Source of the DNA: an uncultured Mycoplasmataceae bacterium | GTDB lineage: Bacteria > Bacillota_I > Bacilli_A > Mycoplasmatales > Mycoplasmoidaceae | Assembly: GCA_947041945.1 (NCBI GenBank) | Contig: CAMREV010000002.1 | Coordinates: 1-64,000, forward strand | DNA length: 64,000 bases | Direction: 5' to 3' | In this document: piece by piece, positions 5,223 through 9,545 of the stretch | How the letters are laid out: every line of letters begins with the position of its first letter | How positions within the stretch are numbered: position 1 is the stretch's first letter | Notes under the pieces: generated by a model | The model's database searches: none | What the model was told of the DNA's origin: nothing | The model's input: the letters and a program-made list of their open reading frames with translations, nothing else | Position numbers and translations under genes: made by a program

Positions 5223-7613
5223 ATGTATAATCATAATTCCATTGAAAAAAAATGAATTGAAAAATGAAAAAAAAATCAAACATATAAATTTGTTGATGAT
5301 AAAAAATCACCTAAATTTTATGTTTTAGATATGTTTCCATACCCTTCGGGAAGCGGCTTACATGTTGGCCATCCTAAAGGATATGTTGCATCCGATATTC
5401 TTGCAAGATATAAAAAATTCAAAGGTTTTAATGTATTACATCCAATTGGATGAGATGCATTTGGTTTACCAGCAGAACAATATGCATTAGAAACCAAAAA
5501 TCATCCAAGCGGATTTACTGAAACAAATATAAACACGTTTAGAAATCAATTACAAAAAATTGGTTTTAGTTTTGACTATGAAAAAGAAGTTAATACTACT
5601 GATGAAAACTATTACAAATGAACACAATGAATCTTTACACAATTATATAAACAAAGATTAGCAGAAATAAAAGAAGTAGATGTTAATTGATGTGAAAACT
5701 TAGGAACAGTTTTAGCTAATGAAGAAGTTATTAAGGACGACAAAGGTCAGATGCTATCTGAAAGAGGTAATCATCCAGTAACTAAAAAACCAATGAAGCA
5801 ATGAGTTTTAAAAATTACTGAATATGCTGATAAATTAATTGAAGGTCTTGATGAAATAGATTGACCAGAAGGTCTTAAAAATATTCAAAAAAAATGAATT
5901 GGTAAGTCAGAAGGATTTGAAATCATATTTAAGGTTAAAGACTTAAATATTGATTTAAATGTTTTTACTTCTAAACCTGAATCAATTTTTGGAGTAACTT
6001 ATATTGCAATTGGACCTGAATCAAAAATAATTGAACAACTAAAAATTAACAAAAATCCAGAAATAGAAAAATTTATTGAAGTTTCTAAAAATAAACAAGA
6101 GTTTGAAAGAACAAAAGAAAATACAGAAGCTAATGCAATTAATACTAACTTGGTAGCTATTCATCCAATTACCAAAAAAGAAGTTCCAATTATTATTGCT
6201 GACTATGTAATTGGAACATATGCATCAGGAATTGTAATGGGAGTTCCTTCTTTTGATTTAAGAGACAAAAAAATTGCTTCTAAATATAATTTAAAAGTAA
6301 TTGAAATACTACAAGATAATAAAATGATTAATTCAGACTTTGTAAATGGATTAAGTACTGATGATGCAAGAATAAAAATTATTAAATATCTTGAAGATAA
6401 TAAACTTGGTCTAAAAAAAGTCAACTACAAACTAAGAGATTGATTATTTAGTAGACAAAGATACTGAGGGGAACCATTTCCTGTACTTTATGATGAAAAT
6501 AACAATATAGAATTAATTGAAGACTTACCATTAGTTTTACCTAAAACTAATAATATTAGTCCTTCAAAAGATGGAACATCTCCTTTATCTAATCTTACTG
6601 ATTGAATTAATGTAGAGATTAATAATAAGAAATATAGAAGAGATTCAAATACAATGCCTCAATGAGCAGGCTCTTGTTGATATTATATTGCTTACATTCT
6701 AAAAAATGATGATGGCACATATACTCCATTAGATTCTGAAGAAGCAAAAAAAAGATTTAAAAGATGATTACCAGTTGATGTTTATATTGGCGGACAAGAA
6801 CATGCCGTTCTTCATTTACTATATGCTAGATTCTGAAATAGATTTTTGTATGACATTGGTATAGTTAGTAATAAAGAACCATTTCAACTTGTAGTTAATC
6901 AAGGAATGATTTTAGATCAAAATAATCAAAAGATGTCTAAATCAAAAGGTAATGTTATTAGTGTTGATGATGTAATAAGTGAATATGGAGCTGATTCTTT
7001 AAGAATTTATGAAATGTTTATGGGACCAATAAACTATTCATTAGCATGAAATGATGACTCTTTAAAAGGATCTAAGAAATGAGTTGAGAAGGTATATCTT
7101 TTATTTGAAAACAAAAAAGATATTATTAAAGATAATGTCACTAATGATGAACTATTAAAAGATTACAAATTATTTGTAAATAATGTTTCAAATAATATTG
7201 AAAAGTTACAATTCAATTTAGGTGTATCAGATATGATGATTTTCATTAATGCTTGTTATAAAGCATCTGAAATCAAAAAAGAATATTTAAAAAACTTTAT
7301 AATTATTCTTTCTTGTTATGCTCCATTTATAGCAGAAGAAATTAATTTGAACTTCTTTAAATCAAATGAAAGCATTACAAAAGGACAATGACCTAAAATA
7401 GAATCAATTAGTTCTGAAAATGAATTAATAAACATTCCAGTTCAAATAAATAGCAAAGTTAGAGATATTGTTAAAGTAAAAAACAATATTGTTGAAGAAG
7501 AATTAATTGATTTAGTAAAATCAAATGATAAAATAAAACCATATTTAGAAAATAAGGAAATTGTTAAAACAATCTTTGTTAAAAACAAAATAATAAATTT
7601 TATTCTAAAATAG
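5223..7613 (+). CDS. leuS: Leucyl-tRNA synthetase
   Basis: 796 residues, class I synthetase charging tRNA-Leu. HIGH-type motif HVGH is at 47-50 and KMSKS at 570-574. The CP1 editing domain is present (about 220-420), but its signature is worn: the threonine-rich motif TTRPDT is TSKPES (249-254) and the GTGAVM segment is ASGIVM (334-339). The catalytic-site Asp345 is kept (PSFDLRD). The C-terminal part is short for the family. ATG 5223 starts the first conserved segment. Many TGA codons are read as Trp. Confidence 0.97.
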
Positions 7614-7646
7614 AAAATATAACTATAATTTAATTAGGAGTATATA

Positions 7647-7718
7647 ATGAATAACAAAAAATGCCTTTGTAATCCTTGTACATGTGAAAAATGTACATGT
7701 GAAAATTGTGAATGTTAG
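7647..7718 (+). CDS. 23-aa metallothionein-like cysteine peptide
   Basis: The ORF encodes 23 residues with eight Cys (6, 8, 11, 13, 16, 18, 21, 23), that is four CxC pairs each separated by exactly two residues. All other positions after the first five are Leu, Asn, Pro, Thr, Glu or Lys. AGGAG stands 6 nt before ATG, a TATAAT lies 25 bp upstream and a terminator follows at 7747-7786, so it looks like a complete small gene. The regular CxC spacing is typical of thiolate metal clusters in metallothioneins. I know no mycoplasma family of this kind. Metal binding or redox buffering is inference. Confidence 0.65.
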   Translation: MNNKKCLCNPCTCEKCTCENCEC

Positions 7719-7746
7719 ATTTAATCCAAATCTAAATAATATATAT

Positions 7747-7786
7747 AAAAAAAAGAATGAGTGGTTAACTCATTCTTTTTTTCTTA
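7747..7786. terminator. Bidirectional terminator
   Basis: The stem AAAAAAGAATGAG/CTCATTCTTTTTT with loop TGGTTAA ends the Cys-rich peptide gene on plus and the ABC transporter operon on minus (stop at 7792). Confidence 0.75.
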
Positions 7787-7791
7787 GTTTC

Positions 7792-8598
7792 CTAAATAAT
7801 ATATTTATCAACCATTTTATATAATGTACCAAACTTTTTATTTACATCATTAATTGATGCATCAACATAAATTTCTTTATCATGGATAACGATTGCTCTA
7901 TTAACCATTTGTGACATTGTTTCTATATCATGACTGATAATAACAAATGTTATCTTATATTTATCACAGAATTTAATTAAGAAGTCCTTAATATTCTTTT
8001 TAACAGCAATATCTAAACCAGTTGTGAATTCATCTAAGAATAATAGTTTAGGTTTACTTAATAGAGAAAGAATAACATTTAATCTTTGTTGTTGTCCACC
8101 TGAAAGTTTATGTGCTTTAGTATCAAGAATTGAAGTTAATGAGAATATTAATAACATTTCTTCTAATTCTTTTTCATCAATTGCAGTTCCATCTAATCTA
8201 ACAACAAAATCAATTACGTTTCTAACTGATAAGTTTCTAGGGAAAGATAAATCTTGGAATTGAACACCAATCGATTTATGCGGATTAACACCTTCACCAA
8301 AATTATAAGTAATACTTCCTGCAGTTGCGTTTTTGAAACCACATATTAATTCAACAATTGTAGTTTTACCACAACCATTAGCACCAATTAATGCAAGTTT
8401 ATCACCTTGATGAATATCAAAGCTTAAATTTTCAAATATAACTTTTTCACTTTTAAATGACTTATATACTTGTGCAATATTTTTTACTTCAACAAGTTTA
8501 TTTTCTTTATTAGATTTAACAATGTATTTTTCTAAAATCTCTACAGGCTTTTCAACTTTTATTAATTTTACTTTTTCTCAAAATGCTTTACTAATCAT
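7792..8598 (-). CDS. ABC transporter ATP-binding protein
   Basis: 268 residues. Walker A is GANGCGKTT, the Q-loop region is GVQFQDLSF, the ABC signature is LSGGQQQR, Walker B is LLFLDEF (Glu after Asp), and the switch His is in ISHD. About 35 residues precede the domain. It starts 2 bp after the stop of the ABC-2 permease and forms a two-gene exporter operon with it. The Glu after Asp and 'TTGLD' D-loop fit drug, lipid or peptide exporters of the ABC-2 type. Substrate unknown. Confidence 0.92.
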
Positions 8599-8600
8599 AA

Positions 8601-9545
8601 TTACCTACCGAACCATTTGAAGTATCTCACACTAAATACACCGAAACCAATTGATACAATAATTGGCATGAATACATTAAGAGCTTTTTGTCATGTTTTG
8701 TAAACAATAGTTGATTCTCCACCACTACCAAAACCACCAATAACAAAATCATGTGAGAAATTAAATATATTTTGAATTTCATCAGGTGTAACACCTGCAA
8801 CAGGAGCTGGTTCTATTAATACAGTGTTTAATAATCCAGCTGCATAAGTAAGTGGTGAAAACAGTGATATATATCTAAATGCTTCAGTTCCACCAATTAC
8901 TTGAATTGGAATAAATTGTCCAGCAAAAGTTATTGTAACAAGAATAACAATTATTCCTGATATTAATGCATAAGAAACATTTTTAATAACTGAACTTAAG
9001 AATATTCCTACAGATAATGAAGAAACTATTAAAAGTAAAATTGAATATATTAATCCACCAATATTAATATTTGATAATTCTTCTTCTCTAACTCCATTTG
9101 GATCTTTCATTGTAAAAAAGAAAACAAAGAACAATCCAAATACAATTAATACAAATGCTATTGATAATAGGAAATAAAGAATAAATGTTAATGCTAGAAA
9201 ATTATTTTTTGTAAATCCTGAGTTTTTAATCCTTCTAAGAATAATAGAGTTCTTTAACTCTACTATAATTTGTGGCATTGAAATTAATGCTAATGGTAAT
9301 ATTGATAGTGATATATATGTTGCTAAACTACCAAGAAATAATTGTAATCCAGCATCTGGATCGTCTGAACCTGAAGCTGCAACATAGAAAACCATCATGA
9401 ATAATAATGGTAGTAAAAAAGAAATAATTGGACTTAATTTTGATTTAAAGAAATATACAACCAAAAATTTAGCCAAAAACTTATTTCTACTTAATGATTC
9501 TTTTGTAAGAATTTCATTTTTATAATTTACGTTTATTTTATTCAT
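8601..9545 (-). CDS. ABC-2 type transporter permease
   Basis: 314 residues with about six hydrophobic segments after a ~30-residue cytoplasmic N-terminus. Layout and length match ABC-2 family permeases. A strong RBS (GGAGGA) stands directly ahead of ATG 9545. It is co-transcribed with the ATPase gene that follows at a 2-bp distance. The extracellular stretch before the last helix is Gly/Ser/Asn rich. Probably exports a small molecule or lipid; not resolvable further. Confidence 0.85.

Follow-up and report, generated by a model that had tools for sequence, protein, structure and literature searches.

The window, by which is meant the whole stretch of 64,000 nucleotides analyzed here, from a wall-less bacterium, carries a short open reading frame between leuS and the convergent genes of an ABC transporter (Table 1). 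Its product is a 23-residue peptide of which cysteine makes up about one-third (8 of 23 residues), at residues 6, 8, 11, 13, 16, 18, 21 and 23, in a strict CxC-xx register; the stop codon is TAG. A first-pass annotation had described this peptide, its coordinates, its eight cysteines and the C-x-C-x-x register, all of which were exact. The AGGAG box that it reported lies six bases 5' of the ATG, and the terminator that it placed downstream is real, with 0.0 such structures expected in shuffled sequence; an Rfam search returned one sub-threshold miRNA match, on this terminator. The TATAAT hexamer also named there is present, but its role as a promoter is weak: the hexamer occurs 84 times on the + strand of the window (25% GC; a probability of about 3% for a stretch of this kind), no correctly spaced −35 precedes it, a promoter scan did not call it, and a transcript begun from it would start inside the AGGAG box. 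It is also dispensable, because transcripts of leuS may read through into the peptide gene, and since leuS ends so close upstream, read-through is the likelier source of transcription. The ABC ATPase and ABC-2 permease are not thought to be part of the peptide gene unit.

Table 1. Features of the peptide gene and its surroundings in the window
Feature	Position	Strand	Remarks
leuS (leucyl-tRNA synthetase)	5223..7613	+	TGA = Trp; ends 33 nt 5' of the peptide gene
TATAAT hexamer	7624..7629	+	weak as promoter; without −35, scan negative
Shine-Dalgarno AGGAG	7636..7640	+	6 nt before ATG
Peptide gene (23 aa)	7647..7718	+	MNNKKCLCNPCTCEKCTCENCEC; four CxC pairs, two-residue spacers; no aromatic residue, no His
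15-bp in-frame tandem repeat (TRF array)	7677..7715	+	2.6 copies, coding CTCEK/CTCEN/CEC
8-bp hairpin	7715..7735	+	small; spans the stop codon, just 5' of the terminator
Intrinsic terminator	7747..7783	both	bidirectional, 15–16 bp stem; common to the convergent ABC transporter gene
ABC transporter ATPase	7792..8598	-	convergent
ABC-2 permease	8601..9545	-	partner of the ATPase

The window has three in-frame matches to CxCxxCxC, where 100 dinucleotide shuffles averaged 0.02, and none of these shuffles produced eight cysteines within 18 residues; the chance figure is inflated by growth of the 15-bp tandem repeat that makes up part of the gene, a weakness of which independent relatives are free. 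With this caveat, the shuffles bore out the earlier claim that such a pattern is not expected of a random AT-rich open reading frame. The repeat is a likely route for the gain or loss of CxC units, and such in-frame changes would explain the differing numbers of units among relatives. Further matches to CxCxxCxC in the genome that contains the window (12 contigs, about 90% complete) included no small cysteine-rich gene with a start codon and a Shine-Dalgarno sequence.

Relatives in the order were sought by pattern and profile searches, because BLAST with the window peptide returned only itself. A first profile, dominated by genome G032, missed the window peptide and was replaced by a broader one, which at E ≤ 0.1 matched 20 of 320 genomes. 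This cut-off is loose: several single matches have poor E-values and are carried by their Shine-Dalgarno sequence, their size and, in genus g22, a conserved locus. One dubious match (G309, L444), which falls within a coding region, was set aside. Similar peptides of 21–34 residues occur in 19 of the 320 genomes, nearly all with a clear Shine-Dalgarno sequence. The cysteine spacing, for whose conservation the first-pass annotation had looked to BLAST, is kept in relatives found by these other searches, and two peptides from another family, MENKKICSCKNCSCTNCTCTNCSCNE (G201) and MSNKENKSCSCVSCTCQACTCSNCSCSAKK (G209), have the window's exact register of four CxC-xx units. A pattern match in G009 fell within an exonuclease-like protein (L012, 1069-2109, - strand) and not in a small gene; the inserted NCKCWDCTCNKCKC stretch of this protein is a likely metal-binding loop.

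These data bear on the possibility that the frame arose by chance inside a 15-bp AT-rich tandem repeat, as the TRF array might suggest and as might the lack of a match to the peptide gene in two genomes of the same genus (both 77–78% complete). Against this, the first CxC unit lies outside the array, the spacing of the Shine-Dalgarno sequence is good, 18 further genomes of the order have the same register, at unrelated loci, and the reversed pattern matched none of 395 genomes of the class. A chance origin is therefore very unlikely, and 7647-7718 is a real, unannotated gene, of a size below the reach of normal annotation. Peptides so short and so rich in cysteine may nevertheless resemble each other by convergence. 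The distribution of the gene is patchy, as is often the case with detoxification genes: it is absent from every other leuS locus examined, and at the leuS locus of G001 a different gene takes its place.

Genus g6, which belongs to the same family as the window, has the peptide gene in 3 of 11 genomes. G032 carries four tandem genes, encoding MLFKNECDCQCETTNKCTCDKCECENCSCAC and three paralogues of 33–34 residues, between efp and a tRNA/membrane-protein gene, with a terminator at the end of the array; G106 and G107 have one gene each at the same site between efp and the membrane-protein gene. Nearly all cysteines are kept among the G032 paralogues and synonymous sites vary, with pS and pN of 0.31 and 0.07 for copies 2 and 4, 0.31 and 0.10 for copies 2 and 3, and 0.21 and 0.14 for copies 3 and 4. 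The four tandem copies are under purifying selection, as measured among these paralogues.

A regulatory context was found in genus g22, where ten genomes encode a peptide of 21–28 residues, for example MKNISNACNNNECTCENCTCDNCTCNK or MLNISTACNCDVCTCTNCTCSSCSCTK. In all ten of the operator-bearing loci (L435, L438-L443, L445-L447) an ArsR/SmtB-family gene lies tail-to-tail with the peptide gene, its stop codon falling roughly 70–100 bp past the region of the peptide's start codon. By curated cut-offs its predicted product is an ArsR/SmtB metalloregulator (65.1 bits against NCBIfam model NF033788, cut-off 55; 44.3 bits against Pfam HTH_5, PF01022, cut-off 22), and its best PDB match is an arsenic-responsive ArsR. 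Its cysteines lie in a C-terminal CxxC and in a segment, CDCGCNKC, that opens the DNA-binding domain and looks unlike the classic ELCVC site. Between the promoter and the Shine-Dalgarno sequence of the peptide gene lie two tandem palindromes, TATCTATATAGATAGTTATCTATATAGATA, a predicted operator with the repeat unit TATCTATATAGATA. When the 20 g22 genomes were searched for it allowing up to three mismatches, one site each was found in 10, exactly those with the peptide and the ArsR gene, and always 5' of the gene for the peptide; the remaining ten had none (0/10), and a reversed operator gave 0. Since the only operator in each of these genomes precedes the peptide gene, this gene appears to be the sole target of the putative metal-sensing repressor, the module resembling a compact metal switch with one sensor and one target. 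This fits the known behavior of SmtB/ArsR repressors, whose sites are one or two inverted repeats close to where transcription of a target begins, metallothionein genes being among these targets (PMC8790569). G284, also of g22, has a different peptide, without operator. No CopY box was found upstream of the mollicute peptides, and a DNA search of the g22 locus against plasmids returned nothing.

The arrangement of neighboring genes also bears on whether the frame could be a leader peptide whose cysteine codons attenuate a downstream gene according to cysteine supply. A short cysteine-rich frame followed by a terminator would suit such a role, for which mycobacterial polycysteine sORFs offer a precedent (Canestrari et al. 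2020, cited in PMC9094748). However, the neighbors in the window are convergent and the nearest + strand gene downstream is more than 2 kb away, the next gene in g22 is the convergent arsR, and attenuation requires neither four tandem copies nor a fixed CxC-xx spacing. For the window this explanation is refuted by the absence of a downstream target, and its overall probability is slight indeed.

The window's genome was examined for comparable functions. No HTH_5/ArsR match and no g22-type operator were found in this genome, about 90% complete, so that the window copy is probably unregulated, or regulated in another way. No P1B metal ATPase scored over the curated cut-off, and the sole long P-type ATPase is without a CPx motif and looks to be of the calcium/magnesium type. 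Within the reach of these searches, the earlier statement that this genome has very few metal-resistance genes is borne out.

Combined, these observations make it most likely that 7647-7718 encodes a micro-metallothionein. The peptide is small and cysteine-rich, with four CxC pairs and no Phe, Trp, Tyr or His, as is characteristic of metallothioneins, and the proposal of a minimal metallothionein-like gene made in the first-pass annotation stands as the best reading, given that peptides of sister mollicutes appear to be single targets of an ArsR/SmtB repressor and that those of g6 occur in multiple copies under purifying selection. The strongest argument for this role is the predicted regulation in g22, which pertains to relatives and not to the window copy. 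We infer that the peptide binds metal: eight thiolates in CxC pairs would enclose soft metal ions (Cu(I), Zn(II), Cd(II) or the like) in a small cluster and so buffer or detoxify them. In g22, metal would release the repressor and so switch on synthesis of the peptide when it is needed, in the manner of SmtB/SmtA; the window organism, for whose copy neither the ArsR/SmtB gene nor the operator was found, would make it at a low steady level together with leuS. A thiolate peptide could conceivably do another job, as a metal chaperone, a redox buffer or a zinc-stabilized protein-binding peptide, and not store metal. Eight thiols would buffer redox too, CxC occurs in chaperones and sensors, and a longer look-alike in Flavobacteriaceae adjoins a cysteine-rich ECF sigma factor, conceivably its partner. 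Detoxification or storage is, however, the best fit to a putative ArsR/SmtB repressor whose operator stands before no gene but that of the peptide, and to the amplification in G032, and such other jobs are unlikely.

The proposed micro-metallothionein is a member of no defined family. The window peptide had no match in Pfam or NCBIfam up to E = 10, and no PHROGs model covers it; its relatives gave one chance match, far below cut-off, in these databases, and neither it nor they matched curated bacterial metallothionein models such as the SmtA type. A PDB sequence search gave chance matches only, and no report of such peptides was found in the open literature, although absence cannot be proven from that.

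Look-alikes outside the mollicutes were sought by scanning the pattern CxCxxCxCxxCxC-stop in 85,000 genomes. Among the matches listed, most are from Flavobacteriaceae, with a 33-aa peptide of consensus MKNxxCTCNCxGCKxGNCxNCTCENCTCxNCNC which is followed directly, in 42 of 58 loci among those matches, by a co-oriented gene for a SigZ-like ECF sigma factor whose cysteines in DCCGF and DCKVC are conserved (L220-L299). The pair is possibly a metal-sensing sigma factor and its target, or the peptide a leader. For its non-Cys codons alone, the Cys columns being fixed by the search, pN was 0.35 against a pS of 0.64. Further matches among those listed come from Streptococcus cuniculipharyngis (MSKDCTCQETGLCTCQNCTCDKCSC, stand-alone, with a Shine-Dalgarno sequence and a terminator), Dehalococcoidia and a Thaumarchaeota MAG. 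Prevotella loci L226, L231, L242 and L291 encode large CxC-repeat proteins of ~180–310 aa with C-terminal repeated CKCxDCKCDPC units.

Raw pattern counts in viral contigs were dropped as evidence, the reversed pattern being commoner (60 vs 39). In IMG/VR contigs, 29 of 39 matches were open reading frames of ≤50 aa led by a Shine-Dalgarno sequence, whereas a control register of equal cysteine content, CxxCxx, gave 0 of 24 (Fisher p about 1e-9). At L061, L072, L086, L087 and other IMG/VR loci, CxCxx peptides of 14–27 residues so led are packed tightly among apparent late genes; at several loci the neighbors look like portal/prohead and other late or structural genes. DNA searches of the viral loci in annotated phages found nothing, nor did tblastn against phages and plasmids, where low-complexity filtering possibly hides such queries. 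The look-alikes had no Pfam, NCBIfam or PHROGs match beyond chance.

A Bacilli genome of 22% GC (L295, L338) encodes a peptide with the tail VCTCDKCVCDKCNC, whose neighbors are two ABC exporters, a fragment resembling a subtilase and an acyl-carrier-like protein. The group looks like a RiPP export cluster and another use of the CxCxx register. That cluster, together with the ABC ATPase and permease adjoining the window gene, could suggest that the window peptide is itself a modified RiPP exported by the ABC-2 transporter. But a leader would not fit into 23 residues in total, no modification enzyme is encoded nearby, the neighbors being leuS and the transporter, and this transporter is convergent and missing beside relatives. 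A RiPP precursor is extremely improbable.

The look-alikes may be convergent, and they support the register without proving descent; common descent cannot be tested because the peptides are so small. Those of Flavobacteriaceae and viruses suggest a wider unannotated class. Tentatively, and at slightly under an even chance, prokaryotes and viruses may share a large unannotated class of phytochelatin-like, gene-encoded metal traps of 14–34 residues built of C-x-C-x-x units, controlled by ArsR/SmtB in mollicutes, set beside a cysteine-rich SigZ-like ECF sigma factor in Flavobacteriaceae and placed in late modules in viruses. To our knowledge, bacterial metallothioneins are thought to be rare and known from few lineages. 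If metal is bound, metallothioneins of ~2.5 kDa are in use in organisms with some of the smallest cellular genomes, and gene callers and low-complexity filters have concealed an entire class. The window peptide would then very likely be among the smallest metallothioneins known. The ArsR gene, operator and peptide of g22 would be a minimal, fully specified metal switch of one sensor, one site and one target, giving mollicutes a dedicated metal-detoxification system.

Known systems were compared with these genes. The mycobacterial polycysteine leader sORFs are, like the window gene, tiny and cysteine-rich; they precede the gene that they regulate (cited in PMC9094748), whereas the window gene has no gene downstream. 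CorE-type ECF sigma factors share conserved C-terminal cysteines with the Flavobacteriaceae neighbor (PMC8999054, PMC3107203), which differs in being SigZ-like and whose link to metal is hypothetical. Fungal family 8 Cu-metallothioneins (Neurospora crassa, Agaricus bisporus) have 26 residues and seven cysteines with the spacing X2-CXC-X5-CXC-X3-CXC-X2-C-X3 (PMC4755600) and are, like the window peptide, very short, with CxC pairs and small polar spacers. The window peptide is shorter, with eight cysteines in a uniform CxC-xx x 4; its spacing places it outside family 8, and there is no evidence of descent. In SmtA/SmtB of Synechococcus and NmtA/AzuR of Anabaena, as in the g22 relatives, the gene of a small cysteine-rich protein is placed under an ArsR/SmtB repressor, and palindromic operators sit close to the start of transcription (PMC8790569). 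By comparison with SmtA and NmtA, the present peptides have 23–34 residues and no Pfam or NCBIfam match, and that of the window lacks histidine and aromatic residues; unlike SmtB and AzuR, the g22 regulator is convergent, not divergent, with its cysteines in CDCGCNKC and the C-terminal CxxC, and for the window copy, unlike smtA, no regulator was found. By analogy, the peptide most likely works like SmtA-type metallothioneins and the short fungal Cu-thioneins.
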